40,006 nucleotides of DNA from an uncultured Nitrospira sp. (lineage in GTDB: Bacteria > Nitrospirota > Nitrospiria > Nitrospirales > Nitrospiraceae), in the NCBI GenBank assembly GCA_902500755.1, contig CABVRV010000027.1, forward strand, positions 1-40,006. The letters are read 5' to 3'. Below, piece after piece: positions 12,111 to 36,385 of the stretch. The notes under the pieces were generated by a model that made no database searches, had not been told where the DNA came from, and saw only the letters and a program-made list of their open reading frames with translations. Both the position numbers and the translations under genes were made by a program. Numbering within the stretch: the first letter of the stretch is position 1; every line of letters begins with the position of its first letter.

Positions 12111-13094
12111 TTATGCGTACCCGTGAGTCTTGAACCATCGGACCGCCTTCTCTAGCGCCACTTCGGGGGGATGTTGCGGCAGGTCGAGTTCTCGGATCGC
12201 CTTGCTGCAATCGTAGTGCATTTTGTACTTGGCCATCTTCACCCCTTCCAGCGGAATTCTTGGTGGTCGGTCGGTCAGGTTGGCCAACCAGTGATTGAGA
12301 TAGGCGAGTGGAAGCACCGCGCCCCTCGGCAATTTTAGGGCCGGGGCTTTGACGCCGGTTAAGGTGCTGAGGATCTCAAACACTTCGCGTAACAAGAGGT
12401 TCTTAGCGCCAAGGATATAGCGTTCACCCTGGCGGCCTTTCTCCATCGCAAGCAGATGGCCGGTGGCGACGTCATCGACATCGATAATGTTCATACCGGT
12501 TTCAATGTAGGCCGGCATCCGGCCTTTCATGAAATCCACGATGATCTGACCCGTCGGGGTCGGTTTCACGTCGCGCTCGCCGACCGGGGCACTGGGGTTG
12601 ACGATGACGACGGGCAATCCCTCTTTCGCCAGCTTGTGCACCTCCTGCTCAGCCAGGTACTTCGAGCGTTTATAGTGGCCGGCCATTTGTTCGAGTGATA
12701 CCGGTGTCTCTTCCGTTCCGAGTCCTCCTCCAGGCGGTAAGCCGATCGCGCCGATAGTGCTGCAATAGACCGTGCGTTCGACTCCCACTTCACGCGCGGC
12801 TTCCAACAGATTTCTGGTGCCGACCACGTTAATGTCATAGAAGATCGATGGATCTTTGGCCCACAGCGCGTAGTGTGCGGCAACATGATAGAGGTGGCGA
12901 CAACCGGTAAGGGCCCGGCGGAGTGACGCTTTATCGCGGAGATCGCCGGCGACTGTGTCGATGTTCAACGACTGGAGATTGGTTGGATCACTTCCTGGGC
13001 GGGCAATGACACGGACTTCCCCCCCGGTCCTAAGCAGAGCGCGAACCACGGCGGCCCCGACAAACCCAGTTGCTCCGGTCACGAGTGCCTTCAT
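12111..13094 (-). CDS. hpnA: hopanoid-associated sugar epimerase HpnA (extended SDR)
   Basis: 327-aa NAD(P)-dependent epimerase/reductase of the extended short-chain dehydrogenase class, closest by eye to HpnA, the sugar epimerase linked to hopanoid gene clusters. The N-terminal Rossmann motif GATGFVG lies at 7-13; the catalytic YxxxK is Y141-K145 (GHYKRSKYLAEQ), with a Ser/Thr in CSTIGAIG near 111-118. NPSAPVGERDVKPTPTG is typical of HpnA and dihydroflavonol-reductase-like proteins. It lies between a polyprenyl diphosphate synthase and cruF on the same strand, which fits isoprenoid-lipid metabolism. Its true substrate is not known for the family. Confidence 0.85.
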   Translation of the reverse strand: MKALVTGATGFVGAAVVRALLRTGGEVRVIARPGSDPTNLQSLNIDTVAGDLRDKASLRRALTGCRHLYHVAAHYALWAKDPSIFYDINVVGTRNLLEAAREVGVERTVYCSTIGAIGLPPGGGLGTEETPVSLEQMAGHYKRSKYLAEQEVHKLAKEGLPVVIVNPSAPVGERDVKPTPTGQIIVDFMKGRMPAYIETGMNIIDVDDVATGHLLAMEKGRQGERYILGAKNLLLREVFEILSTLTGVKAPALKLPRGAVLPLAYLNHWLANLTDRPPRIPLEGVKMAKYKMHYDCSKAIRELDLPQHPPEVALEKAVRWFKTHGYA

Positions 13095-13191: not shown

Positions 13192-14082
13192 CTAGTTCTT
13201 TCTGGAAGTGATATACCGTGCGATCTCGCGCAAGGGATCAGCCGAGGGGCCAAAGGAGGAGAGGCGGCTAATGGCACGGGTGACACAGTCATCAGCCAGT
13301 TTTTTCGCCCCGTCCACGCCATAGAACGTCGGATAGGTTTTCTTCCCACGTTCGGCATCGGTGTTGGGATTTTTACCAAGCTCTTCGCGCGTCCCCGTCA
13401 CGTTCAGCACGTCGTCGGCGATTTGAAACGCCAGACCGATGTCTTCGGCATACCCCGTCATGTCGTCGAGTTGCCGGTCGCCCGCTCCGGCGGCAATTGC
13501 GCCCATGCGGACTGCGGCACGAATGAGCATACCGGTCTTGTGCTTGTGAATGTTCTGCAGGGTTGGAAGATCGATATCCTTGTTTTCGGCTTGGATGTCG
13601 AACACCTGGCCACCCACCATGCCCATATTGCCGGAGCCAAAGGCCAACTCTTGGATGATGCGAACTTGCCGCATGGGGTCGCAGCCCTTCATGAGGTCCG
13701 GCCTGCTGACTAGGTCGAAGGCCATCGTGAGTAGTGCATCTCCGGCGAGAATAGCCATCGCTTCGCCATACACTTTATGATTGGTCGGCTTCCCACGGCG
13801 AAAGTCGTCGTTATCCATCGCCGGCAGATCGTCGTGGATCAGCGAATAAGTGTGGATGAGTTCCAGCGAGCAGGCCACCGCCATCAGACCGGGCGGCGTT
13901 TGGCCCAACGCGTCCGCTGCCGCGATCGTCAGAATCGGCCGCACCCGCTTTCCACCCGCCATCAGACTATAGCGCAGACTCTCATGCAACGTGGTCGGAG
14001 GCACCGCAGCCGGTGGAGCTACAAAGTCGAGAAAACGGTCAACCTCGATGCGTTTATGTTCGAGATACTCGGCAATATTCAT
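13192..14082 (-). CDS. ispA: polyprenyl (farnesyl/geranylgeranyl) diphosphate synthase
   Basis: 296-aa trans-prenyltransferase that condenses isopentenyl diphosphate with allylic diphosphates, supplying precursors for hopanoids, carotenoids and quinones. The first Asp-rich motif is DDLPAMDNDD (84-93, the DDx4D form typical of bacterial FPP/GGPP synthases); KRVRPIL lies at 45-51; the second motif region reads FQIADDVLNVTG, with Asn where many family members have the last Asp. GKKTYPTFYGVDGA is also family-typical. It ends in Lys-Asn. Product chain length cannot be decided by eye. It is the first gene of the probable operon with hpnA and cruF. The symbol is by homology. Confidence 0.88.
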   Translation of the reverse strand: MNIAEYLEHKRIEVDRFLDFVAPPAAVPPTTLHESLRYSLMAGGKRVRPILTIAAADALGQTPPGLMAVACSLELIHTYSLIHDDLPAMDNDDFRRGKPTNHKVYGEAMAILAGDALLTMAFDLVSRPDLMKGCDPMRQVRIIQELAFGSGNMGMVGGQVFDIQAENKDIDLPTLQNIHKHKTGMLIRAAVRMGAIAAGAGDRQLDDMTGYAEDIGLAFQIADDVLNVTGTREELGKNPNTDAERGKKTYPTFYGVDGAKKLADDCVTRAISRLSSFGPSADPLREIARYITSRKN

Positions 14083-25729: not shown

Positions 25730-26917
25730 TCACGTCTTACTTTTTACCGGATCCAATAGTTGCGTCTGCACCGGGGTGCCCTCGTGTACCAAGTCTTTAC
25801 CGGAGAGAATGATCTCTTCATTCCCTGTCAGCCCATTGGTGATTTCTATATAGCTCCCTTGTTGGGCGCCGATCTCAATGTCCACTCTCCGGGCTTTCCC
25901 TTCTTCAACGATGTACACATATTGTGACTCTTCAAGCCGGCTGACCGCATCGATGGGAATCTGTAAGGCCTGAAGATGCGTTCCTACCAATACTTCGACT
26001 CGGGCGAACATTCCACCCTTTAATCGACGATCTCTGTTCGGTAAGTCAATTTCAACAGTCATGGTACGGGTTGCGCGATTCAGGGCCTGGACGATACGTG
26101 TTACCGTCCCCTCGAATATCTGGTCGGGGTATGCTTCAGCGCGAAGCTCTGCCTTTTGTCCGATCTTCACGCGTGGAATATCTCGCTCGACCACTTCGAT
26201 CAGAACACGGACCGTATCGATGTCGTGCAAGCTCATGATGCCTCGCGACATGGTCGACGTGCTGGCGGTGGCGCTGCTGACATAGGCTCCGGTATCTAGA
26301 TTACGCTCCGCGATATAGCCGGAAAACGGAGCTCTGATATAGGAATAAGCCAGGTTGGTGTTTGCTTGGGCCAGGGCGACATCCATTTGGTTCACCTGAG
26401 CTTGTAAAGATTCTTGTGCCGCTCTGGCGGCATCAAGGTTGACCTCCGCCGTATCGAGGTCCTGCTGCGAAACGAATCGGTCTTTGATGAGAGTTTGCAT
26501 GCGGTCGAATGTGAGCTTGGCATTGCGAACCACCGCATCCTGCTGCGAGACTCTTGCTTTCGCGGCAGACAGGTTGGCCTTCGCTTGATCAACGGCATGC
26601 TGATAGTCCGTATGATCTATTTCAACGAGTAATTGATTCGCTCGGACAAAATCACCTTTATCTACATGCAATTTTGCAATGTACCCGTCGACGCGTGAGA
26701 AGACATTGACAACTTGATTGGGTGAGATGTCGGCCGTGTAGGCCAAGCGAATGTTGAGATCTTGTTTAAGCGGGGACACAATGCCGACGGTGACAAGGCG
26801 AGTCTTGTTTGTCTCGGTTTTAGCGCCCGTGCTCAGGCGAAAGACGAGAAGGGCGGCAATCACAAACACAACGGCAATCCCAAGGGCTAACAATGGATGT
26901 CGGGATAATTGGCTCAT
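25730..26917 (-). CDS. RND efflux periplasmic adaptor (HlyD/MFP family)
   Basis: 395-aa membrane-fusion protein linking the RND pump to an outer-membrane channel. One N-terminal membrane anchor (~8-27). Lipoyl half-motif VFSRVDGYIAKLHVDKGDFV, alpha-hairpin coiled coil at about 105-185 (QAKANLSAAKARVSQQ, AEVNLDAARAAQESLQAQ), second lipoyl half YIRAPFSGYIAERNLDTGAY, then beta-barrel (VLIEVVERDIPRVKIGQKAE) and membrane-proximal domain. Starts 15 bp after the TetR stop; the RND gene follows after 66 bp. Probably repressed by the TetR protein. Confidence 0.92.
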   Translation of the reverse strand: MSQLSRHPLLALGIAVVFVIAALLVFRLSTGAKTETNKTRLVTVGIVSPLKQDLNIRLAYTADISPNQVVNVFSRVDGYIAKLHVDKGDFVRANQLLVEIDHTDYQHAVDQAKANLSAAKARVSQQDAVVRNAKLTFDRMQTLIKDRFVSQQDLDTAEVNLDAARAAQESLQAQVNQMDVALAQANTNLAYSYIRAPFSGYIAERNLDTGAYVSSATASTSTMSRGIMSLHDIDTVRVLIEVVERDIPRVKIGQKAELRAEAYPDQIFEGTVTRIVQALNRATRTMTVEIDLPNRDRRLKGGMFARVEVLVGTHLQALQIPIDAVSRLEESQYVYIVEEGKARRVDIEIGAQQGSYIEITNGLTGNEEIILSGKDLVHEGTPVQTQLLDPVKSKT

Positions 26918-26932
26918 ATGCGTGTTTGCCGC

Positions 26933-27577
26933 CTACGCATCAGATGACTGTCGTACGAGCCCGCCAAGGAACAGTGAGACATATTCTGCGACCGTATCCT
27001 CGTGAGTGAGGTGCATGGGTAAGCCATAGACATCGTGGAGCAGTCGATGGTGAACGATGATCCCGAAAAATGCTCTAGCTGCAAGCAAGGGATCGACCGT
27101 TCGGAAAGCGCCAACTTCGATGCGTCGGTGAATGTAGTTTGCAAGAAGGTCATGGAATACTTGATACTGCCGCTGAAAGAACATGTCGGACATCTCATGC
27201 CCTTCCAGGGCACTGAAAAGGAGCAGGCGGAACAAGGTCGGATCGGCTCCTCTTCTGATTCGATAGCTCGCAAGCAAGGTGAAGAGCCGCTCATCATCCT
27301 GCTTCTTCGCGGCATCCTCGACCGCCTCTCGAAGCCCCGAGTATTGGGCCTTCTCCTCGAGAATTGCGGTGTATAGCGCTTGCTTAGTTGGAAAGTATTT
27401 GAAGAGAAGCGCCTCACTGACTCCGGCTGCCTTCGCGATTCGTTTTGTAGTCGTTCCAGTAAAGCCGTTGGTCGCAAACAGCGACGCGGCAGTGTTGATT
27501 AGGCTTGCTTGACGTTGATTAGCCGATGTTCGCGACTTCCGTTGAGGATGAGGGGATGGTTTCTGAATGCTATTCAT
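26933..27577 (-). CDS. TetR/AcrR-family transcriptional repressor
   Basis: 214-aa regulator. The basic, polar N-terminus is followed by the TetR HTH at about 24-68 (ASLFATNGFTGTTTKRIAKA, AGVSEALLFKYFPTKQALY) and an all-helical ligand-binding domain (FRLLLFSALEGHEMSDMF, ARAFFGIIVHHRLLHDVYGL). It is the first gene of the efflux operon and is therefore its likely local repressor. Its ATG lies inside the left arm of a perfect 42-bp interrupted palindrome, so it probably represses itself by blocking transcription at the start of its own gene; the mRNA could also fold over the start codon. Confidence 0.92.
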   Translation of the reverse strand: MNSIQKPSPHPQRKSRTSANQRQASLINTAASLFATNGFTGTTTKRIAKAAGVSEALLFKYFPTKQALYTAILEEKAQYSGLREAVEDAAKKQDDERLFTLLASYRIRRGADPTLFRLLLFSALEGHEMSDMFFQRQYQVFHDLLANYIHRRIEVGAFRTVDPLLAARAFFGIIVHHRLLHDVYGLPMHLTHEDTVAEYVSLFLGGLVRQSSDA

Positions 27578-27607
27578 GGTGAGTAATCACTCACCATGAA
27601 TAGCATT
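27566..27607. promoter_or_regulatory. perfect palindrome over the tetR start codon (operator)
   Basis: Arms of 19 bp, 27566-27584 and 27589-27607, are exact reverse complements around the 4-bp spacer AATC. The tetR ATG (27575-27577, minus strand) lies in the left arm, and the right arm carries a mirror-image copy of its first codons on the plus strand. The inner core GGTGAGT/ACTCACC looks like a TetR-family operator. The transcript would form a 19-bp hairpin including the start codon. Confidence 0.85.
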
Positions 27608-27662
27608 AGGCTATATTGAAAGGCAAGGCAGGATCAGTATGTAGTTCTTGGCACTAACCAGA

Positions 27663-28046
27663 CTAAGCTTGTCCAACTGACTGGGTGTGAAGAAATACCC
27701 GCATCCGGTCTCCTTCCTGCAGGCTCAGCTCTTTCAGAGCCACACCGAACAGTGACCCAGTACTCCATGCTACGGTCGCTTCCAGGATGAATAGAGGATC
27801 TTCCTCGTCCGGGAGGTATAAAAACAGGGTGAGGTCCGTGCCAACCTGCACAGGATAATTTCCGCGAATACCGACTCCGCCCTCGGACAAGTCGACGACG
27901 GTACCGTCACCGATTAGAACGTCTTCTCCATTGAAACCTGAGTACATGAGGCCAAAGGAAACGTTGGTTCTCCCCTTTTCCCTGCGTTCGATTGAACCGC
28001 GGGAGTGCCGACCCTGCGAATGTCCTACTTGTTTCATCTGTCTCAT
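27663..28046 (-). CDS. single-domain PilZ protein
   Basis: 127-aa PilZ-domain protein, a likely c-di-GMP receptor. Start at 28046 with a good GGAGG site 7 nt upstream. The c-di-GMP signature is intact: RxxxR in RREKGRTNVSF and DxSxxG in VVDLSEGGVGIRG. Beta-barrel strands follow (GTDLTLFLYLPDEE, FILEATVAWSTGSLFGVALK). It ends in a short helix (EGDRMRVFLHTQ). Not fused to any output domain, so it must act through a partner. One of four PilZ genes in the window. A structured upstream region lies at 28101-28188. Confidence 0.85.
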   Translation of the reverse strand: MRQMKQVGHSQGRHSRGSIERREKGRTNVSFGLMYSGFNGEDVLIGDGTVVDLSEGGVGIRGNYPVQVGTDLTLFLYLPDEEDPLFILEATVAWSTGSLFGVALKELSLQEGDRMRVFLHTQSVGQA

Positions 28047-28100
28047 CGTATTCCTCCACGTAATATTTCCAGTCCCAGAGGTCTCGTATGAAAGAAGATT

Positions 28101-28188
28101 AGCGCTGGGTGTCGGTTTTGCCTCCCCACAAAGGGAGGGGTACTAACTCGGTCAGAAGGGGGATAACCACCTGGTGGCGACACCCGCT
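28101..28188. ncRNA. candidate structured element upstream of a PilZ gene
   Basis: GGGTGTCG (28107-28114) pairs with CGACACCC (28178-28185), enclosing CCTCCC/GGGAGG (28121-28126/28133-28138) and CCAC/GTGG (28167-28170/28174-28177): a small multibranch fold possible on either strand. It lies 55-140 nt upstream of the PilZ start on the minus strand. It does not match the GEMM c-di-GMP riboswitch as I know it. A mobile-element end is another possibility. Confidence 0.3.
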
Positions 28189-28288
28189 GGTAAGAGAATC
28201 TATTCGGAACGGAGTGATGAAAGAATTATCGCGTGCACTTGGAAGCGGTACACTTTCCGCGTTGTCTATGAACAGCTTGGTGGGGGAA

Positions 28289-28711
28289 CTACATAAGTCG
28301 GAATCGGGTTCGTTGATCGCTCACGGTGGTGTGAGAAATGCTCTTCCAGATGAATGATTGGAGCCGTTTTCGGTGGTCCCGGTTCAGGTCCATGAATCGG
28401 ACGGAAAACTGACAGCCAGATACCCATACGACATGCGCCGATTTTAAGGTAAGTTGTGGTAATCCGTCTGGAAGCGCAATGGTCAGGGTTAATAGTGTGC
28501 CACGTGTGACCGGGCGGTCGCTGATAACCTTGCATCCGGAAACCGATACGTTTTTTGTGAGCCCTTCTCCTTGGTGAGGCTGTGTTGGCACTTCACCGAC
28601 ATAGCGAACTCGACATGTGACAGCTACACGTTCAGCATAGCGGTTATCTAACGGCACGTAAGGCTTCCGGTTCATCATCGTAAGTTTTACAATCATAACC
28701 TTATGGGCCAT
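28289..28711 (-). CDS. single-domain PilZ protein
   Basis: 140-aa PilZ-domain protein. Start at 28711 with AGGAAAG just upstream; a later Met (MMNRKPYVPL) is possible. The signature residues are present: RxxxR in RYAERVAVTCRVRY and NxSxxG in KNVSVSGCKVIS. Then barrel strands (GTLLTLTIALPDGLPQLTLK, AHVVWVSGCQFSVRFMDL) and a helix (HRKRLQSFIWKS). The last ~18 residues form a polar tail. Its origin and the other PilZ here (27663-28046) share little beyond the fold, so they are not a recent duplication. Confidence 0.82.
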   Translation of the reverse strand: MAHKVMIVKLTMMNRKPYVPLDNRYAERVAVTCRVRYVGEVPTQPHQGEGLTKNVSVSGCKVISDRPVTRGTLLTLTIALPDGLPQLTLKSAHVVWVSGCQFSVRFMDLNRDHRKRLQSFIWKSISHTTVSDQRTRFRLM

Positions 28712-28792
28712 TCTTTCCTAATCAATTCAGTAATGCGGCTTAGGGATGCTTGTGGACGTATGAGATGGTCCTGACGACTCGGTGATCGAAGA

Positions 28793-29320
28793 TTAAAAGG
28801 CCGTCGTGGAGGTCTCATCGGTCAGTTTTTCAGGAAGTGTCCGACTCTCGAAAAAGATGATGCCACGATCAAGCCTGTTTTCGAACCGCAACGTCACTTC
28901 CGTGTGAAAGCCATGCCAAGCATACACTTTCACTGAGCCGACAGCGATCTGCCCTGGCGTGCGATCGAGGGGACCGTACTTGGCTTGAAGGTAGCTCACA
29001 ATGTCCTCATGACTTTCTTTGCCGTGATAACGAACGGTTACTCGGCCAAGCTTATTCTCAAATGTAGTAAGCCGTAGGGAGTCGACTACCGTCGTGCCAA
29101 GCATCGGGGGGTGTGTTTTCGGCTCATATGTTTGAATGCGACCTGAATCCTCGATTTTTATGAATTGTTCCGCTTCCGACAGGATAGTTCCCCAGGAAAG
29201 GTCTTCGAATCCATTTGGATCGTTCGCAATGGGGACACCCAAGCTAGGAGTTCCCGACATGAGCAGGCAGAACAGCAATGCGACAAACCGTGTGAGCCGC
29301 TCAGAGTGATACCTGCGCAT
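28793..29320 (-). CDS. exported hypothetical protein, paralogue of the next upstream gene
   Basis: 175-aa protein with a signal peptide (~1-28). The mature N-terminus VPIANDPNGFEDLSWGTILS and the C-terminal part (YGPLDRTPGQIAVGS, TEVTLRFENRLDRGIIFFES) are closely matched by the protein encoded directly upstream, showing a tandem duplication. The central region (TTFENKLGRVTVRYHGKESH) is a predicted beta-rich stretch. No catalytic residues or metal ligands. It starts 5 bp after the upstream stop, so they form an operon. Family not recognised; perhaps a small periplasmic sensor or binding protein. Confidence 0.7.
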   Translation of the reverse strand: MRRYHSERLTRFVALLFCLLMSGTPSLGVPIANDPNGFEDLSWGTILSEAEQFIKIEDSGRIQTYEPKTHPPMLGTTVVDSLRLTTFENKLGRVTVRYHGKESHEDIVSYLQAKYGPLDRTPGQIAVGSVKVYAWHGFHTEVTLRFENRLDRGIIFFESRTLPEKLTDETSTTAF

Positions 29321-29325
29321 ATAGC

Positions 29326-29856
29326 TTACTCTGCGGAATCAGTGATGTCATCGTTGAATCGAGGTGCAAGCGTACGACTATCGATGAAGATATAGCCCCG
29401 CTCTGTACTAGCCTGATAGGTCAGATTGATTTCGGTGTCGGTCCCGCGCCAGTTGTACTGTTGGGTGAGCCCCCGTGCCATTTGCCCAGGAATTCGATCT
29501 AGTTGTCCGAATCGGCCTTCTAAATGGTTCAACACCTGTTTGTGGACCTGTTCACTTTCATAGCGGATGATCACTCGTGCAAATTGATCATCCAATGAGA
29601 CATAGAGGATGCTGCTCATCTCAGCTCCGGCAAACGAGAGGAGCCCTTCCTTGTAGAGGTATTCGACGATATGCGAGCCCGCACGGATGGCTTCCAGGTC
29701 CTGGCGAGAGGATAAAACGGTCCCCCAGGGAATATCGTGAAATCCTTTCGGATCGTTTGCCATGGGAACTGCCCATGCTGCGTCCACGCCGATTATGGTT
29801 GTGAACAGCGCAGCCAAAGGCCAAATATGCATCGTATGGAGGGATAGGCGGTTCAT
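29326..29856 (-). CDS. exported hypothetical protein, paralogue of the next downstream gene
   Basis: 176-aa exported protein. The Met at 29856 begins a normal signal peptide (MNRLSLHTMHIWPLAALF, cleavage near AWA-VPM); the longer frame from 29922 adds a polar Ser/Asp-rich stretch with no ribosome site, so it is less likely. Mature features mirror the downstream paralogue: VPMANDPKGFHDIPWGTVLS, FGQLDRIPGQMARG, TERGYIFIDSRTLAPRF. It is divergent from the decarboxylase operon, sharing an upstream region that contains a strong rightward promoter. Confidence 0.65.
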   Translation of the reverse strand: MNRLSLHTMHIWPLAALFTTIIGVDAAWAVPMANDPKGFHDIPWGTVLSSRQDLEAIRAGSHIVEYLYKEGLLSFAGAEMSSILYVSLDDQFARVIIRYESEQVHKQVLNHLEGRFGQLDRIPGQMARGLTQQYNWRGTDTEINLTYQASTERGYIFIDSRTLAPRFNDDITDSAE

Positions 29857-29935
29857 ATCCGCTGATGAATCGGAGAGGGTCTTGGATGTACTCACGCTAG
29901 CACGAGAATCATGTGAAGACAATCACCGATCATCC

Positions 29936-29965
29936 TTGAGAACGCGCCAAGCCCTATCTTATAAT
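29936..29965 (+). promoter_or_regulatory. sigma-70 promoter of the phosphonate-type operon
   Basis: TTGAGA (29936-29941), 18 bp, TATAAT (29960-29965, perfect -10). Transcription would start near 29972. An ATG at 29964 lies inside the -10 box and so cannot be the start codon of the first gene. Confidence 0.7.
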
Positions 29966-30014
29966 GCGCCGTTTTTGGCAGGCGATTGCTGACCATGCCG
30001 AGGAGAACAGTCCA

Positions 30015-30512
30015 GTGATTGAGAGTGATGTGTTTGTGCAGGCCATGCAGGATATGGGGGTCAACTTTTTCACCGGAGTGCCTGATTCAATCCTGGGTGG
30101 GATCATCGCGGAGTTGTTGAATCGACGACTGTATACTCCCGCTGTTCGAGAGGATGAAGCTGTCGGTATGGCCGCCGGCGCCTACATGGCTGGAAAAACT
30201 CCGGCCGTCCTCATGCAGAATTCGGGACTCGGCACTTCGCTCAACACCCTCATTTCACTCAATATGATCTATAGACAACCCTGCGTGCTGATCGTTTCAT
30301 GGAGAGGTCAAGGGGGGAAGGATGCCCCGGAACATCTGGTGATGGGCGACGTCATGCCGCAATTGCTCGATACCGTTAGAATTCCACACCGGACGCTGAC
30401 CGAAAAAACAGCCGTCGAGGACTTTCGGTGGGTCGCCGATACGTATATGAAGCAACAGATCCCTGTTGCGCTCTTTATTACAAAGGGCGTGGTGAAGGGG
30501 TTGCACCCATGA
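30015..30512 (+). CDS. phosphonopyruvate/sulfopyruvate decarboxylase, alpha (N-terminal) subunit
   Basis: 165-aa N-terminal half of a split thiamine-diphosphate decarboxylase. The GTG at 30015 is chosen because AGGAG (30001-30005) is 9 nt upstream and the earlier ATG sits in the promoter. Motifs: NFFTGVPDSILGGIIAELLN at the start, REDEAVGMAAGAYMAG carrying the TPP-activating Glu, then VLMQNSGLGTSLNTLISLNM and IVSWRGQGGKDAPEHLVMGD, all as in phosphonopyruvate decarboxylase (Ppd) and ComD. Ppd converts phosphonopyruvate to phosphonoacetaldehyde; ComDE makes sulfoacetaldehyde. The neighbouring PhnW- and PntC-like genes favour the phosphonate reaction. The stop overlaps the beta-subunit ATG (ATGA). 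Confidence 0.85.
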   Translation: MIESDVFVQAMQDMGVNFFTGVPDSILGGIIAELLNRRLYTPAVREDEAVGMAAGAYMAGKTPAVLMQNSGLGTSLNTLISLNMIYRQPCVLIVSWRGQGGKDAPEHLVMGDVMPQLLDTVRIPHRTLTEKTAVEDFRWVADTYMKQQIPVALFITKGVVKGLHP

Positions 30513-31090
30513 AACCAGAGGAGGGAACCTTAATCAGTCGCGCGCAGGCCATGGCAGCCTTGTTGGACTTACTGACGGACCAACCGGTCATTATCTGCAA
30601 TGGGTTCCCTTCTCGCGAGGCCCACAAGATAGCGGACCGGCCTACCCATTTCTATATGATCGGGTCAATGGGCAACGCTCCGGCTATTGCGCTCGGTGTT
30701 GCTCTTGCCAAGCCGAATAAGCAGGTGATTACCTTTGACGGCGACGGAAATGTCCTTATGGGCATGGGCACGCTCGCGACCGTCGGGGCCTTGAAACCGA
30801 AGAACTTCATCCATGTGGTGTTCGATAACGAAGTGTACGGAACCACTGGGAATCAGCCGACGATCTCCAATGTCGTGCCGCTGGAGAAAGTGGCGAAGTC
30901 GGCAGGCTACGTGAATGTCGAGCGGGTACTGGATCGTGACGATCTTGTCTACGAATTCAAAGACATGCTGAAAAAGGACGGGCCCAGCATGCTGCTTATC
31001 AAAGTCAATGAATTGGTGGAAGATGCCGGTCGTGTACTGCACGAGCCGCCGGAGGTGACCCGCCGGTTTATGAAAGCGATTGAGGGATAA
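30509..31090 (+). CDS. phosphonopyruvate/sulfopyruvate decarboxylase, beta (C-terminal, TPP-binding) subunit
   Basis: 193-aa second half of the split decarboxylase, starting at an ATG that overlaps the alpha stop by 4 bp. The thiamine-diphosphate motif GDGNVLMGMGTLATVGAL (GDG...N type) lies near 77-94, preceded by MIGSMGNAPAIALGVALAKP and followed by FIHVVFDNEVYGTTGNQPT, closely similar to Ppd. Together with the alpha subunit it reconstitutes the ~360-residue enzyme found as one chain in most Ppds. The split form is like archaeal ComD/ComE. In most known phosphonate pathways this step follows PEP mutase, which is absent from this window. Confidence 0.87.
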   Translation: MKPEEGTLISRAQAMAALLDLLTDQPVIICNGFPSREAHKIADRPTHFYMIGSMGNAPAIALGVALAKPNKQVITFDGDGNVLMGMGTLATVGALKPKNFIHVVFDNEVYGTTGNQPTISNVVPLEKVAKSAGYVNVERVLDRDDLVYEFKDMLKKDGPSMLLIKVNELVEDAGRVLHEPPEVTRRFMKAIEG

Positions 31091-31178
31091 AGGGCGACAA
31101 GAGTTTCCCTTGCGCTCTCCGGCCGCGCACGATAAGAGGAAATCCATTCATGCCTTTTAAACGTGGAAGGAGAAAAGC

Positions 31179-32261
31179 GTGGTTCTCCTGAATCCTGGGC
31201 CGGTAAACGTTTCCGATCGTGTACGACAGGCTCTGCTCCGTCCAGATATCTGCCATCGAGAAGATGAATTTTCCGAGCTACTGCATCGGATCCAAACCAA
31301 GCTGCTCAAAGCGTTCGTCCCTGAAGCTGAGTCGGACTATGTCGCTGTTGTGATGACTGGGTCAGGGACGGCTGCCGTCGAGGCTGCCTTGATGTCGTCG
31401 CTCCCGCATGGCCGACGGATCCTCATCCTCAACAACGGCGTGTATGGAGAGCGGATGTCCCAGATCATCGGGCTTCATCGCTTGGGCGTGAGTGAGTTGA
31501 AATGTGAATGGACGGTTCGTCCGGACTCGGAAAGACTGCTGCTCGCGTTACGCCAACATCAGGAAGTCCATGTGGTCGGCATGGTGCATCATGAAACGAC
31601 GACCGGGCTCTTGAATCCTGTTCACGAGATCGCGGAGATTGTCGATAGCCAGAACCGCGTGTTTGTGTTGGATGCTGTCAGTGCGCTCGCCGGAGAAACA
31701 CTCGATGTCGCCAAGTCGCATATCTATATGGTGGTGGGCACGGCTGGGAAATGCATTCAGGGGTTCCCTGGCGTTTCGTTCGTACTGGTGCGAAAAGGAT
31801 TTGTTGAGAAGATGCGATCGTATCCGAAACGGTCCTGGTACCTCCATCTGACACATTACATCGATAATCAAGGGCGAGGCACGATTCCGTTCACGCCGGC
31901 GGTACAAGTCTATTACGCGTTCGATGAGGCCCTTGATGAACTCCTTGAGGAAGGTGTCTCCAAGCGCGTCCAACGGTACAAGAGAATGGCGACGCTGATC
32001 CGTGAACGAATGGCGTTGCTTGGCGTGAAGGCTCTGCTTCCCGCGGATCGGCAATCCAATACCATTACGGCCTATCACTTGCCTGATGGGGTGACGTATC
32101 AATCGCTGCATGACCGGCTCAAACAGCAAGGCTATGTGATCTATGCCGGACAAGGAAACCTAGAAAACAAGATCTTCCGCGTCGCTAATATGGGGGCATT
32201 GACCGAAACACAGTTCGGCGGATTTCTGGACGTGTTTGAACAGGCGTGTAGGCCCGCATGA
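31179..32261 (+). CDS. phnW: 2-aminoethylphosphonate:pyruvate aminotransferase-like (class V)
   Basis: 360-aa PLP-dependent aminotransferase. The GTG at 31179 is supported by AAGGAG 6 nt upstream. It begins with the PhnW-like LLNPGPVNVSDRVRQAL and DICHREDEFSELL; the PLP Lys is K191 in GTAGKCIQGFPGVSFVLV, and D165 (VFVLDAVSALAG) would contact the PLP ring nitrogen. In the operon, it would aminate phosphonoacetaldehyde to 2-aminoethylphosphonate, the reverse of the usual catabolic reading. Alternative acceptors (alanine-glyoxylate type) cannot be excluded. The downstream cytidylyltransferase overlaps by 4 bp. Residues ~200-230 include a PKRSWYLHL segment fitting substrate-binding Arg/Lys. Confidence 0.85.
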   Translation: MVLLNPGPVNVSDRVRQALLRPDICHREDEFSELLHRIQTKLLKAFVPEAESDYVAVVMTGSGTAAVEAALMSSLPHGRRILILNNGVYGERMSQIIGLHRLGVSELKCEWTVRPDSERLLLALRQHQEVHVVGMVHHETTTGLLNPVHEIAEIVDSQNRVFVLDAVSALAGETLDVAKSHIYMVVGTAGKCIQGFPGVSFVLVRKGFVEKMRSYPKRSWYLHLTHYIDNQGRGTIPFTPAVQVYYAFDEALDELLEEGVSKRVQRYKRMATLIRERMALLGVKALLPADRQSNTITAYHLPDGVTYQSLHDRLKQQGYVIYAGQGNLENKIFRVANMGALTETQFGGFLDVFEQACRPA

Positions 32262-32977
32262 AAGCGATCATTCTGGCAGCAGGAGTCGGGAAACGTTTGT
32301 GGCAGGTGACGCAGCATCGCCCCAAGTGCCTTATTGAGATTGGCGGTCGATCGCTTCTGCATCGCTATCTGCAGTCCCTGGCGAGCGTCGGCATTCGTCG
32401 AGTGGACATCGTCGTTGGGTACAAGCAGGAGATGATTCGAGCGGCGGTCGAACAGGATTCGTATGGTCTCATTGTGAAGTTTTTAGTGAATGAAGAGTTT
32501 CACCGAGGCAGCATTTCATCCTTGTGGATCGCCCGAGATGCGTTCGACGACGATGCCATCGTGATGGACGCGGATGTGCTGTTCCATCGGGAAATTCTCC
32601 GACGGTTGGTCTCGTCGCCTCATGAGAACGCGTTGCTGATGGATGAAACTGTGAAGCAAACCGGTGAAGAATGTATGGTGGTTGTGGCGGGCGGCCGCGT
32701 GATTGCGCTGACGAAAAAGGTACCGGAACAATACGACTATGCCGGCGAAGGCGTGGGATTTTTGAGGGTTCGGCATGCCGACACGCCGCGTGTTATCTCC
32801 TCGCTCCGCGACTATATCGACAAGGGATCATGGGATATGGAGTACGAAGATGCTCTACTGGCGTATTTTCGGGACGTACGAGTCGGTTATGAAAAGATCG
32901 GAGGACTCCCCTGGACCGAGATTGATTTCATCGATGACGTAAAGAAAGCTGAGTTGGAAGTTTTGCCAAGATTATGA
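32258..32977 (+). CDS. pntC: PntC-like phosphonate/phosphoamine cytidylyltransferase
   Basis: 239-aa nucleotidyltransferase of the sugar-phosphate/choline-phosphate cytidylyltransferase type. The signature LAAGVGKRL followed by RPKCLIEIGG lies at 6-30; metal-binding Asp in VMDADVLFHRE near 104; EDALLAYFRD and WTEIDFIDDVKKAELE at the end are typical of LicC/PntC. The start overlaps the aminotransferase stop (ATGA). Known PntC proteins activate 2-aminoethylphosphonate as CMP-AEP and are often fused to an aminotransferase; here the two are separate but translationally coupled. That context is the reason for the symbol; phosphocholine or phosphoethanolamine activation (LicC-like) remains possible. 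Confidence 0.78.
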   Translation: MKAIILAAGVGKRLWQVTQHRPKCLIEIGGRSLLHRYLQSLASVGIRRVDIVVGYKQEMIRAAVEQDSYGLIVKFLVNEEFHRGSISSLWIARDAFDDDAIVMDADVLFHREILRRLVSSPHENALLMDETVKQTGEECMVVVAGGRVIALTKKVPEQYDYAGEGVGFLRVRHADTPRVISSLRDYIDKGSWDMEYEDALLAYFRDVRVGYEKIGGLPWTEIDFIDDVKKAELEVLPRL

Positions 32978-33059
32978 GAAAGTCTTCCCTATGGTACGAT
33001 GGCAGAAGCGCACGATTGGGGGAAGAGCGTGATCCTCAAGTATAGCTGAATGTGAGACC

Positions 33060-34496
33060 ATGAGTAAGAGCATTCTCCAACGGAGGGCAGAGATTCAAGG
33101 ATTGGCGACGGCGATTCTTCTGCCTTCCGTCGGAGTATTCGGCGGACCGATCGGGCCGGAGATCGGAGAGCTGGGTCCTCTGGCAAGTGTGGTGGGAATC
33201 GGACTCTTTCAACGCACGGTGCTGACCCTGCAGCGAGCGGGGATTCGTCAGTTAATCGTCCTCTCGGGTTCGGAGGAAGAACAACTCAAGCTGACGTTGG
33301 GGAAAGGGCCGCGCGTCACGATTCCTGTCCGCTGGATGCCGATTCGGGAGTTTCCACTCGACGATCCTCGGACATGGGAGTCGTTGGCTGCCGAAGTGCA
33401 TGGATTTGCGCTGGTCGCCAGCGTCCATAGCGTGTTTTCTCGTGGGTTGATCGAACAACTACGGCGAGACGTACGAGACGGCCAATCGATCGTGGTCGCG
33501 CAATCCCGACAGGATCAACTCGATCACCCGACGATGCATGGCGTGCCCTTGAACATGTCGTCCGGTCGTTCGAAGACCGTTGGCTCAACCCGTTTGGAGG
33601 AGTCAACCGTGCGCGTCGCGGAGCTTGTGGTTGTTCCCGCGAATCTCATGAGCGCGGCGAATCCAGCAACGAATGAGAAAGGTCGTCCTCCGATTCGCCA
33701 GTGGATCGAGCGGGCCGCCGCAGACGGACGAGTACGAGTCGTGACAGCTGAAGCGAAGCGAGGCACCTGGTATCAAGAGGTTCGCACCTTGTCCGATGTG
33801 AACACGGCGGAAAACAAACTATACAACTCCCTCAAGGGGGAATTTGAAGGGTTTGTCGACCGGTATTTCAATCGAAAGTTGTCTCGTTGGTTCACCCGCC
33901 TGTTTCTCGCCATCGGGCTTTCGCCGAATTCCATCACGGTGCTTGCTGGACTCATCGGTTTGGTTGCTGCTGCGGGATTTGGGATTGGCACGTACAGCGC
34001 CGGGGTTGTGGCGGCGGTGTTATTTCAATTGGCGGCCGTCATCGATTGTTGTGATGGGGAAGTTGCGCGATTGACCTTTACGGAGTCACAGTTCGGCGCG
34101 TGGCTGGATCTCGTCCTGGACAACGTCGTGCACATGGCGATTTTTGCAGGGATCGCCGTGGGGCTCTATACCACGAAAATTGGACAAAATGATGAGTGGG
34201 TTCCTCTCGCACTCGGTGTGGCGGCGGTGGTCGGGAACGCCGTTTCATTTTTTCTCGTCGAAAAGGCGCAAAAAATCAAAACGATGAGTGGGTGGAAATC
34301 TCCGGCCCATGCAGCCTGGGCCGATACCCTGTTGAGAAATGTCGCGAGCCGGGATTTCTCGGCAGCCTTGCTGGGGTTTGCGCTCTTCGATCAATTATAC
34401 TGGTTTCTCATCTTTGCAGCAGCCGGTTCGTTGCTCTTTGCCGCTGCAATGGTCTGGGTCATCCGCCCCTCCTTGACAGCAGTGCCTCGACAATGA
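33060..34496 (+). CDS. CDP-alcohol phosphatidyltransferase fused to a degenerate nucleotidyltransferase-like domain
   Basis: 478-aa bifunctional-looking protein. The C-terminal half (about 255-470) is a multi-helix membrane CDP-alcohol phosphatidyltransferase with the full motif D332-G-x2-A-R-x8-G346-x3-D350-x3-D354 (DCCDGEVAR...QFGAWLDLVLDN). The N-terminal ~230 residues keep a nucleotidyltransferase-like alpha/beta pattern (LFQRTVLTLQRAGIRQLIVL) but the nucleotide-binding loop is altered (LLPSVGVFGGPIG instead of LAAGxGxRL). The layout recalls inositol-1-phosphate cytidylyltransferase/DIPP synthase fusions. In this operon it would transfer the CMP-activated headgroup onto a lipid alcohol. 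Starts 82 bp after the PntC-like gene without a strong ribosome site. Confidence 0.8.
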   Translation: MSKSILQRRAEIQGLATAILLPSVGVFGGPIGPEIGELGPLASVVGIGLFQRTVLTLQRAGIRQLIVLSGSEEEQLKLTLGKGPRVTIPVRWMPIREFPLDDPRTWESLAAEVHGFALVASVHSVFSRGLIEQLRRDVRDGQSIVVAQSRQDQLDHPTMHGVPLNMSSGRSKTVGSTRLEESTVRVAELVVVPANLMSAANPATNEKGRPPIRQWIERAAADGRVRVVTAEAKRGTWYQEVRTLSDVNTAENKLYNSLKGEFEGFVDRYFNRKLSRWFTRLFLAIGLSPNSITVLAGLIGLVAAAGFGIGTYSAGVVAAVLFQLAAVIDCCDGEVARLTFTESQFGAWLDLVLDNVVHMAIFAGIAVGLYTTKIGQNDEWVPLALGVAAVVGNAVSFFLVEKAQKIKTMSGWKSPAHAAWADTLLRNVASRDFSAALLGFALFDQLYWFLIFAAAGSLLFAAAMVWVIRPSLTAVPRQ

Positions 34497-34521
34497 ATGC
34501 GACGCCGACACCACTGACCAC

Positions 34522-35529
34522 GTGTTGAGGTATTTCCTACTCGCCCTCGGTCTTGCCGTTCTGGGCCTTCTCGTGTGGCGTATCGGCCCCGGTCATATCT
34601 ACGATGCGGCGTCGCGACTGGGACCGGTCACTTTGTTGATCATCCTCATTCCATCCGTGCTCATGTATACAATCGAAGCCTATGGCTGGAAGATAGTCCT
34701 AGGGCCGGCCGGGAAAGCCGTCCCCTTTTGGCGGCTGCTGACGATTCGGACGGCCGGGGAAGTGGTAAATATGACCACTCCAACGGCCTACTTGGGTGGC
34801 GAACCACTCAAGGCCTATCTGCTGAAAAAGCACAATGTTCCTATAGCAGAAGGAGCTGCGTCTGTCGTCATTGCCAAAACAACCATGACGATCGCCGAAG
34901 TGTGTTTCATTCTCACCGGGATCGCCCTTGGATTCTGGATTCTCGGTGCCGGCAGCTCAGCAGGACAGACGATTACGGCGGCCCTGGTGAGTGTGGGGTT
35001 GCTTGTGTGCTCGATCGCTGGGTTTGTCTTTATTCAGCATCGCGGGCTCTTTGCGACGATTCTGTCGATCGTTAAGAAACTGGGTGTGAGGATCAAAGCG
35101 TTGGAAGCGCAGGAAGAACACCTGCGCTCGATCGACCAGACGATTCTGAATTTCTACCGCCACCATAAGAAAGCGTTTCTCGCATCGACTGGAGTATGCT
35201 TTTTCGGCTGGCTGGCGGAATCGCTGGAAGTCTTTGGGATCATCTATTTTCTTGGGGGGTCGGTGAGTTTCTGGGCCGCCATCTCCATCGGAGCGCTGGC
35301 CGCTTTTATTAAAGGTGGGTCATTTTTTATCCCCGGAAGTCTCGGCGCTCAAGACGCCGGCTATCTTCTGTTGTTGAAGGCCTTTGGCTACAGCGACGTG
35401 ACCGGTATTACCTTCGCGCTGCTGCGACGATTTCGTGAGCTGGTCTGGATTGCCATTGGCTTACTGTGCCTTGCACTGGTGGGGAAACGAGGGATGAATC
35501 AGGATCAGCGAGTCGAAAGCCCGTCCTGA
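34522..35529 (+). CDS. flippase-like integral membrane protein (LPG synthase TM domain / UPF0104)
   Basis: 335-aa polytopic protein (about eight helices) of the lysylphosphatidylglycerol synthase transmembrane (AglD/MprF-N, DUF/UPF0104) family, implicated in moving lipids between leaflets. The family-typical parts are RTAGEVVNMTTPTAYLGGEP, with TTPT and GGEPLKAYLL, and PGSLGAQDAGYLLLLKAFGY in the second half. GTG at 34522 or TTG at 34525 must be the start because an in-frame stop lies at 34474-34476. It lies 25 bp after the phosphatidyltransferase, suggesting flipping of its product. It overlaps the convergent PilZ gene by 25 bp. Confidence 0.82.
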   Translation: MLRYFLLALGLAVLGLLVWRIGPGHIYDAASRLGPVTLLIILIPSVLMYTIEAYGWKIVLGPAGKAVPFWRLLTIRTAGEVVNMTTPTAYLGGEPLKAYLLKKHNVPIAEGAASVVIAKTTMTIAEVCFILTGIALGFWILGAGSSAGQTITAALVSVGLLVCSIAGFVFIQHRGLFATILSIVKKLGVRIKALEAQEEHLRSIDQTILNFYRHHKKAFLASTGVCFFGWLAESLEVFGIIYFLGGSVSFWAAISIGALAAFIKGGSFFIPGSLGAQDAGYLLLLKAFGYSDVTGITFALLRRFRELVWIAIGLLCLALVGKRGMNQDQRVESPS

Positions 35530-35876
35530 ATGATCGTTCGAAACCGCTCGACCATCCGATCCCATACAAACCCATGCAGTCGAAAGTCTGCGGCCCGCTC
35601 CACCTTGTGGAACTGCAGACCCATTCGATTGCCCTGGACCCATCGAACCTCCGCTTCCTCAACTGCTAATGACCGTGGTTGATCGGGGAGAATCAGTTGG
35701 ACACGAAGCGTTGTTTGCTGTGGGAGGGTATCGTCACATTCGACCGCACAACCGAACACCGTGAGATTCGTTACCTTTCCTTCCCCGATGATCTGCGTAT
35801 CGGAAAACATCACCGGGAATGAAACAGGAAGCAGGACTCGATAGTGGTGCCGCTGATAGGGGTGTGTCGATTCCAC
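35505..35876 (-). CDS. single-domain PilZ protein
   Basis: 123-aa PilZ-domain protein from a GTG at 35876. RxxxR is present (YQRHHYRVLLPVSF), and the second motif is NLTVFGCAV, with Thr in place of the usual Ser; c-di-GMP binding is therefore likely but less certain than for the other three. Barrel strands include TLRVQLILPDQPRSLAVEEA and EVRWVQGNRMGLQFHKVE; a C-terminal helix ends the protein. The 3' end overlaps the convergent flippase-like gene by 25 bp. Confidence 0.8.
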   Translation of the reverse strand: MESTHPYQRHHYRVLLPVSFPVMFSDTQIIGEGKVTNLTVFGCAVECDDTLPQQTTLRVQLILPDQPRSLAVEEAEVRWVQGNRMGLQFHKVERAADFRLHGFVWDRMVERFRTIIQDGLSTR

Positions 35877-35986
35877 GGTGGCCCAGTCTAGATGGCCGCT
35901 TCCATGAGAATGAATCCCTCCTTTGGTGGGGCCACGGAACGGGTTTATCTGTCACGTAGGTTGACTCGAGAGGTCGCTGGGTCTGA

Positions 35987-36385
35987 TCAAACGGAATAGT
36001 GCTTGTTGAGATGCGCGCGCTGTAGCTGCAGAATGCATCGAACCAACATTTCTCGCTCCTCCGAGCTCAATCTGATAAAGCGTGCGTGGAGGCGATAGGT
36101 ATTCGGTGGGTAGGGAAGGGGATCAATCCGCAAGACTTCAATGGAGGGGGTAAAGGGTTCTTGGTCGGGGAGGAGCAACGTGCAGGCAAGCACCTCATTG
36201 GCCTGGTAGGGTGTGTTGACCACCAAGCCGATGCCACCGGCACTCAGGTTCACGGATTTCTCAGTGATTTCTCCCTCGGTCGCGTCTGTTTCAGGTTGCA
36301 AGCGAATGGGCAGGGTGACGGTGATTCGATAGTAATCTCGCCGCTCTCGCGCAGTCGGCGGCGGGGCTGGTCCATCTGCTGACAT
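35987..36385 (-). CDS. single-domain PilZ protein
   Basis: 132-aa PilZ-domain protein. N-terminal Pro-rich tail (PAPPPTARERRDYY), intact RxxxR (ERRDYYRITVTLPI) and NxSxxG (KSVNLSAGGIGLVV), then barrel strands (EVLACTLLLPDQEPFTPSIE, YRLHARFIRLSSEEREM) and a C-terminal helix. A predicted c-di-GMP receptor without an output domain. It lies 110 bp upstream of the preceding PilZ gene on the same strand. Confidence 0.85.
   Translation of the reverse strand: MSADGPAPPPTARERRDYYRITVTLPIRLQPETDATEGEITEKSVNLSAGGIGLVVNTPYQANEVLACTLLLPDQEPFTPSIEVLRIDPLPYPPNTYRLHARFIRLSSEEREMLVRCILQLQRAHLNKHYSV

Follow-up and report, generated by a model that had tools for sequence, protein, structure and literature searches.

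A conserved Nitrospira operon predicted to encode the downstream part of an aminoethylphosphonate-lipid pathway

RESULTS

A six-gene operon in an uncultured Nitrospira

We analysed a stretch of 40,006 nucleotides from an uncultured Nitrospira sp. (GenBank assembly GCA_902500755.1, contig CABVRV010000027.1, positions 1 to 40,006; hereafter the window), in which positions 30015-35529 hold an operon of six genes, all on the + strand. An initial annotation, made from the sequence, had proposed a split decarboxylase, a PhnW-like aminotransferase, a PntC-like cytidylyltransferase, a cytidine diphosphate (CDP)-alcohol transferase and a flippase-like protein. We tested the domain names against Pfam and NCBIfam, and all six genes were found, in agreement with that annotation at the family level. 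We consider it probable (roughly 0.7) that the operon encodes the downstream part of a 2-aminoethylphosphonate (AEP)-lipid pathway, the first enzyme of which, phosphoenolpyruvate (PEP) mutase (PepM), would be the one encoded elsewhere in the genome. The features of the locus are listed below; CdpT is a name coined here for the CDP-alcohol transferase gene.

30015..30512, + strand: PpdA, N-terminal half of a split thiamine pyrophosphate-dependent decarboxylase (PF02776), phosphonopyruvate type by context
30509..31090, + strand: PpdB, C-terminal decarboxylase half (PF02775), overlapping PpdA via ATGA
31179..32261, + strand: PhnW/AepZ-like AEP transaminase (AEPT; TIGR03301), best solved match the AEPT domain of 6pd1
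32258..32977, + strand: PntC-like cytidylyltransferase, best solved match the PntC domain of 6pd1, overlapping PhnW via ATGA
33060..34496, + strand: CdpT, a seemingly decayed IPCT-like nucleotidyltransferase half plus a CDP-alcohol phosphotransferase half (PF01066)
34522..35529, + strand: HpnL-like/LPG_synthase_TM membrane protein (PF03706, TIGR03476), proposed flippase
29936..29965, + strand: sigma-70-like promoter TTGAGA-18-TATAAT, 11/12 consensus bases, between the operon and the divergent small genes
29326..29922, - strand: small protein of 198 aa, a divergent neighbour conserved next to the operon, with no Pfam or NCBIfam match at E 0.001
28793..29320, - strand: 175-aa paralogue of the preceding protein, with no Pfam or NCBIfam match

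PpdA starts at a GTG (30015) with GAGGAG upstream. The ATGA overlaps described initially occur at two of the five junctions, PpdA/PpdB and PhnW/PntC, but the other three are gaps of 88 bp (PpdB-PhnW), 82 bp (PntC-CdpT) and 25 bp (CdpT-HpnL). Likewise, the promoter that had been called strong is well placed, but positions 26900-36000 held two promoter-like sites on both strands compared to a mean of 5.6 in shuffles, so that the claim amounts to a well-placed consensus match only. Identical gene order was found in loci of other members of the taxonomic order (genus Nitrospira and three further families), and it was also kept in G205, a genome of another order, and in further genera of the family to which the window belongs (G-numbers denote genomes in our samples and L-numbers denote fetched loci). 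Because it recurs in these loci, the gene order is not a product of chance.

The genome encodes a canonical PEP mutase on another contig

The operon had been described as lacking a PEP mutase, which holds for the window but not for the genome. PF13714 gave three hits in the genome, none of them on the window's contig. The best, a 545-aa protein on contig C13, scored 387.1 bits with TIGR02320 (cut-off, 319.55) and carries the motif EDKLFPKTNS together with a fused C-terminal nucleotidyltransferase domain; the second was methylisocitrate-lyase-like, and the third was a weak hit. The genome-wide search for EDKxxxxxNS suggested by the initial annotation therefore found a canonical PepM, and the pathway is not refuted by want of a PEP mutase in the genome.

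Assignment of the operon proteins

Among solved structures, the cytidylyltransferase best matched the PntC-AEPT protein of Treponema denticola (6pd1; E, 4.7e-15), with LicC behind (1.8e-11). An identity as LicC, only the second-best solved match, was rejected. The catalytic residues R15, K25 and K153 of PntC, as named in the available part of PMC6697681, have aligned equivalents in R13, K23 and K153 of the operon protein. The same part of PMC6697681 places Glu104 and Glu196 in the AEP pocket of T. denticola PntC, with Asp in both places in LicC; the operon protein has Asp at the first position and Glu at the second.

The decarboxylase is less clear-cut. PpdA scored 128.9 bits with TIGR03297 and 114.8 bits with TIGR03845 (cut-offs, 312.5 and 147.95), and PpdB scored 181.6 bits with TIGR03846 and 174.9 bits with TIGR03297 (cut-offs, 221.5 and 312.5); neither protein reached a cut-off. 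TIGR03297 is the phosphonopyruvate decarboxylase model, of which each split chain spans only part, and TIGR03845 and TIGR03846 are the sulfopyruvate decarboxylase ComDE models. Since the two kinds of model score about equally and below their cut-offs, the assignment of PpdAB rests on context. Thus, the split halves of the predicted Ppd/ComDE-type decarboxylase are present, but the models do not separate Ppd from ComDE. The PhnW-like protein scored 348.8 bits with TIGR03301, below the cut-off of 360.8 yet at the top of 17 families, and against solved structures it matched 6pd1 best (194.7 bits), slightly ahead of the PhnW structure 1m32 (189.4 bits).

In the C-terminal half of CdpT, the motif DxxDGxxARx(7-9)GxxxDxxxD is intact with a spacing of x8 (DCCDGEVARLTFTESQFGAWLDLVLD). 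The N-terminal half is IPCT nucleotidyltransferase-like and lacks the GxGxR loop; with the IPCT/DIPPS model NF041135, CdpT scored 99.5 bits (cut-off of 580 not reached), its nucleotidyltransferase motif being lost. This half thus resembles a decayed nucleotidyltransferase. The loop is intact in the CdpT relatives of the four Nitrospirota genomes read (G090, G189, G161 and G164), and its loss in CdpT fits a donor supplied by the separate PntC. This comparison consists of motif reading and pairwise identity, made without the short form of G037 and the Roseomonas rows and with Mycetohabitans as a long branch. The HpnL-like protein scored 129.9 bits with PF03706 and 167.6 bits with TIGR03476 (cut-off of 195.65 not reached), for which homologues in Mycetohabitans and G219 scored 317.9 and 154.4 bits, respectively. 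The function of hpnL is not established, according to the available part of PMC12583986.

CdpT and PepM occur together across Nitrospirota

Two overlapping samples were used: 246 Nitrospirota genomes, in which a strong CdpT was a match over 200 bits, and a smaller set of 59 genomes that includes the window's own. In the larger sample, 76 genomes had a strong CdpT and 75 had PepM; 74 had both, 2 had CdpT only, 1 had PepM only and 169 had neither (Fisher p of 1.8e-59, uncorrected for kinship). The genome with PepM and no strong CdpT was G219, a distant member of Nitrospirota, which carries PepM, Ppd and a weak CdpT relative side by side on the same strand. CdpT and PepM were both missing from G118, G192 and G255, which belong to the same family as the window. 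Weaker CdpT matches of 112-133 bits occurred in eight further genomes, which include G219 and the four with an intact GxGxR loop. In the smaller sample, CdpT was matched at E 0.001 in 58 of the 59 genomes, and several of the matches outside the genus are weak and probably represent other members of the family. Among the 52 genomes used for an operon tree, we found PpdA in 48, PpdB in 49, PhnW in 50, PntC in 48, CdpT in 52 and HpnL in 49, some of the losses falling at contig ends. A side observation concerns locus L039 (G012:C1:1219000-1235000), which has a decayed partial second operon copy, with PhnW, PntC, CdpT and HpnL fragments, near an intact one.

Two types of predicted PEP mutase replace each other

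The PepM proteins fell into two main types. In the smaller sample, 31 genomes had a protein over the TIGR02320 cut-off (a-type) and 21 had a divergent protein of about 239-285 bits (b-type), while G053 had a third kind just below the cut-off, with EDKLFPKVNS, and G029 had a broken-up a-type. The motif EDKxFPKTNS was present in all 20 a-type proteins fetched (of 31), and EDN[VI][YF]PKRCS was present in all 20 b-type proteins fetched (of 21), G049 being typed as b by score alone. In the larger sample, 75 genomes had a match at 1e-60, exactly one each (18 b-type and 57 others), and the 30 of 75 loci read had the expected motif in 18/18 b-type and 12/12 a-type cases. Three b-type proteins scanned with TIGR02320 scored 271-279 bits, short of the cut-off of 319.55. 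Taking both samples together, with G219, G053 and G029 left out of the count, 68 genomes had the a-type, 32 had the b-type and none had both. On a tree of concatenated operon proteins (31 a-type, 19 b-type and 2 untyped genomes), the type changed at least six times, compared to a mean of 15.5 after shuffling. Mutual exclusion together with repeated changes of type is the pattern expected if the two types do the same job.

The types also differ in position. The b-type gene lies divergent next to the operon, with one or two relatives of the window's small genes in between, in 13/13 b-type genomes of the genus Nitrospira and in six further b-type genomes fetched from the window's family. The named relatives, whose loci are the best 80 of 208 confirmed matches, include cultured N. 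moscoviensis NSP M-1, and its b-type PepM in this position is intact. The a-type gene is unlinked to the operon. Decayed b-type pieces were found at the usual place in the a-type genomes G007 and G019 (L040:7892-8525 and L025:13220-13414). In the 80 named loci, many of the b-type hits classed as "partial" reflected the PntC gene matched against the fused domain (residues ~293-417) and were excluded from these remains; in the window no b-type remains were found, the query matching only the PntC gene above 35 bits. Two genomes varied in the place of PntC. The G045 operon is without PntC, which there overlaps the a-type PepM at its unlinked site; a PntC-like gene (37% identity) was found one gene away from PepM in G053, and none in the operon. 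In L064, L075 and L079, the genes adjoining the a-type were ispD-, ispF-, serine acetyltransferase- and truA-like, as named by eye.

Alternatively, the b-type might be a different enzyme, such as a carbon-carbon (C-C) lyase or a phosphonopyruvate hydrolase, that alternates with the a-type PepM by chance. The Asn of PEP mutases is replaced in it by Cys, within a loop (PKRCS) similar to the KRCGH loop of C-C lyases; its score falls under the PepM cut-off (271 versus 319.55 bits); and the mussel PEP mutase 1m1b (211 bits) is outscored by a phosphonopyruvate hydrolase structure, 2dua (237 bits). Nonetheless, the best solved match of the b-type was another PEP mutase, 5unc (278 bits), whereas C-C lyases reached ~140 bits or less, and the fused nucleotidyltransferase domain is retained. 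In a mutase-family tree of 27 rows, the b-type formed one supported group apart from both the a-type and the phosphonopyruvate hydrolases, and a joint clade with the hydrolases was weakly rejected (p-AU of 0.039). Furthermore, both types occurred together in 0 of 100 typed genomes despite at least six type changes. We regard a different, chance-alternating enzyme as unlikely and treat the b-type as a putative PEP mutase.

Proposed pathway and its alternatives

In the proposed pathway, PepM (contig C13) would convert PEP to phosphonopyruvate, and PpdAB would decarboxylate this to phosphonoacetaldehyde, from which the PhnW-like enzyme would form AEP by working anabolically. The PntC-like enzyme would then activate AEP to its cytidine monophosphate derivative (CMP-AEP), CdpT would attach AEP to a membrane-lipid hydroxyl, and movement of the product across the membrane may fall to the HpnL-like protein. 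We infer each of these reactions, the CMP-AEP donor and the acceptor, either diacylglycerol or a hopanoid/isoprenoid alcohol, from the predicted proteins. A lipid is favored as the acceptor because of the chemistry of CDP-alcohol transferases and the HpnL/LPG_synthase_TM partner. Accordingly, the AEP-making, activating and membrane-acceptor module of the initial annotation is supported by the 6pd1 matches, the co-occurrence with PepM and similar gene sets in Mycetohabitans and Roseomonas; its missing PEP mutase is not upheld, and lipid transfer by CdpT stays a prediction.

Several observations weigh against this pathway. The decarboxylase, transaminase and HpnL-like proteins all score under curated cut-offs. 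Two genomes of the larger sample that are 94-95% complete, G266 and G249, have a strong CdpT with PepM not detected, and 5 of the 59 genomes in the smaller sample (G015, G020, G035, G043 and G044) have no PepM type, even though G020, G035 and G044 (67, 94 and 87% complete) have a CdpT match of E 3e-42 or better. The b-type lacks EDKxxxxxNS, the motif that defines PepM, and outside the window's family it is found away from the operon, on the same contig but ~2.5 Mb apart in G048 and on different contigs in the others. The nucleotidyltransferase domain fused to PepM is a possible second activating enzyme, although the arginine of GxG(T/S)R is absent there. Finally, in 3 of the 20 a-type loci fetched, a second full-length Ppd-like gene adjoins PepM (L064:5337-6470, L066:5783-6922 and L075:1944-3077) and may reflect a separate use of PepM in these genomes.

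AEP could instead be placed on a glycan or another nonlipid surface polymer, as happens in known phosphonoglycans, with CdpT acting on a polyprenol-linked or soluble acceptor. The relatives of CdpT include DIPPS 4mnd, whose acceptor is an inositol phosphate, not a lipid. Moreover, PntC pathways studied so far are expected to decorate glycans or lipids, as stated in the available part of PMC6697681. However, none of the six conserved genes matched a glycosyltransferase or LicD family, and in Mycetohabitans, Roseomonas and G219 the pair of a CDP-alcohol transferase and an HpnL/LPG_synthase_TM protein recurs next to hopanoid genes or in their vicinity; a nonlipid acceptor seems quite improbable. 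A role in replacing phosphatidylethanolamine was also considered for the AEP lipid and is unlikely to be its sole function, as 57 of the 59 genomes, the window's own included, have a phosphatidylserine decarboxylase match. In G000, one of four CDP-alcohol transferase family genes adjoins the phosphatidylserine decarboxylase gene and is probably PssA.

A sulfonate pathway, from sulfopyruvate through sulfoacetaldehyde to taurine with the lipid genes alongside, is very improbable. PpdB slightly favors the sulfopyruvate beta model (181.6 versus 174.9 bits for phosphonopyruvate), and PpdAB is split, as is the enzyme ComDE. On the other hand, PepM accompanies a strong CdpT in 74/76 genomes, the best solved matches of the transaminase and PntC are AEP enzymes, and taurine has no phosphonate for CTP activation. 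Least credible of all is degradation, with PhnW working catabolically beside chance lipid neighbors: PhnW family enzymes are active in AEP catabolism too (available part of PMC8154272), but synthesis is favored because PntC and CdpT share the conserved gene order and PepM co-occurs with the operon, and PhnX (TIGR01422) exceeded its cut-off in none of the 59 genomes, all of which had weaker matches, nor in any of 14 control genomes, so that this search was without a positive control, and C-P lyase was not searched.

Related clusters and a possible link to hopanoids

Mycetohabitans and Roseomonas carry PepM, Ppd, AEPT, PntC, a CDP-alcohol transferase and an HpnL-type protein together. In Roseomonas marmotae, the full set adjoins ispH, hpnH, shc and hpnCDE, and in Mycetohabitans endofungorum it lies ~8-15 kb from ispH, hpnH, hpnA, shc and hpnD. 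No hopanoid gene hits were found near the set in Burkholderia stagnalis (37 kb read) or Cupriavidus P-10 (31 kb read). The Mycetohabitans AEP cluster also holds a 2-oxoglutarate (2OG)-Fe(II) oxygenase by record annotation (L278:17329-18060), with no NCBIfam match, which could hydroxylate the headgroup. In G219, a CdpT relative and then an HpnL-like gene come after a run of shc, hpnA, hpnH, hpnJ, hpnI and hpnK-like genes; hpnM is on the opposite strand, and the HpnK and HpnL scores lie below their cut-offs. A second CdpT copy, 42% identical to the first, is the one that adjoins PepM and Ppd in G219.

Within families f2 and f4, a squalene-hopene-cyclase-like gene encoding 325-327 aa stands between PntC and CdpT (L032:5707-6690 and L037:8436-9413), and matches to this short gene occurred in 10 of the 59 genomes, two of them doubtful at E ~5e-4. 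In the larger sample, squalene-hopene cyclase was present in 76/76 strong-CdpT genomes and in 40/170 others, a contrast confounded by kinship. Since it occurs in those 40 genomes, hopanoids do not need the operon; cyclase genes without the operon are found, for example, in G118, G192 and G255. In the window itself, we observed an HpnA epimerase gene (12111-13094, - strand; TIGR03466, 466.8 bits, over the cut-off) and a farnesyl diphosphate synthase gene (13192-14082, - strand), a pair some 16-17 kb from the operon.

The presence of shc and hpnH in marine Nitrospirales is on record (available part of PMC10579370), and the term "phosphon" is absent from the text at hand of PMC10579370 and PMC5516240. 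For Roseomonas, hybrid clusters of hopene cyclase and PEP mutase have been described and an undiscovered terpene-phosphonate has been suggested (available part of PMC8776678). Tentatively, and with more doubt than confidence, we propose a phosphonohopanoid in Nitrospirales: with CMP-AEP as donor, CdpT would place AEP on a hopanoid alcohol, for example bacteriohopanetetrol, HpnL would move the product, and part of the order would use a PEP mutase with Cys for Asn. A hopanoid is the boldest option for the acceptor, and diacylglycerol remains the simpler one.

Flanking genes

In the Nitrospiraceae loci read, one or two relatives of the small proteins stand divergent next to the operon. Short open reading frames at 27663-28046, 28289-28711, 35505-35876 and 35987-36385 (- strand) flank the operon region and look PilZ-type-like by eye.

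DISCUSSION

Nitrospira are major nitrite oxidizers and include comammox bacteria. If the proposed pathway is correct, a conserved route puts carbon-phosphorus (C-P) bonds into their membranes, nitrifiers could be steady suppliers of reduced organic phosphorus, and C-P lipids gain a defined candidate for their transferase. A testable role for hpnL would also follow from the repeated association with hopanoid genes. A PEP mutase in which Cys takes the position of Asn in EDKxxxxxNS would escape motif-based surveys, and the b-type proteins suggest that surveys filtered in this way, as one was according to the available part of PMC6697681, may miss phosphonate makers. Cultured species such as N. 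moscoviensis, with its intact b-type PepM by the operon, open the question to direct testing.

Among known systems, the Pnt pathway of T. denticola and Atopobium rimae (available part of PMC6697681) shares the same kinds of PepM, Ppd, AEPT and PntC and the CMP-AEP logic. The Nitrospira operon differs in its split decarboxylase, in a PepM that is unlinked in this genome, and in having a CDP-alcohol transferase and an HpnL-like protein where the available part of PMC6697681 mentions LicD-like transferases or glycosyltransferases. The M. endofungorum and R. marmotae clusters have the same six-part set, but with a one-chain Ppd, PepM inside the cluster and hopanoid genes close by; their CDP-alcohol transferases (231 and 200 aa) have no N-terminal domain, and Mycetohabitans adds the 2OG-Fe oxygenase. 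The hopene cyclase-PEP mutase hybrids of Roseomonas (available part of PMC8776678) share the gene link between phosphonates and hopanoids; that text names no CDP-alcohol transferase, HpnL or Nitrospira, although no word search for these was made. For CdpT itself, IPCT/DIPPS 4mnd likewise fuses a nucleotidyltransferase-like domain to a CDP-alcohol phosphotransferase, and AF2299 (4o6m) is also close; unlike 4mnd, CdpT is without the GxGxR loop in its N-terminal half and adjoins a stand-alone PntC. What is new here is the alternating PepM and the combination of Pnt logic with a CDP-alcohol transferase and an HpnL-like protein.

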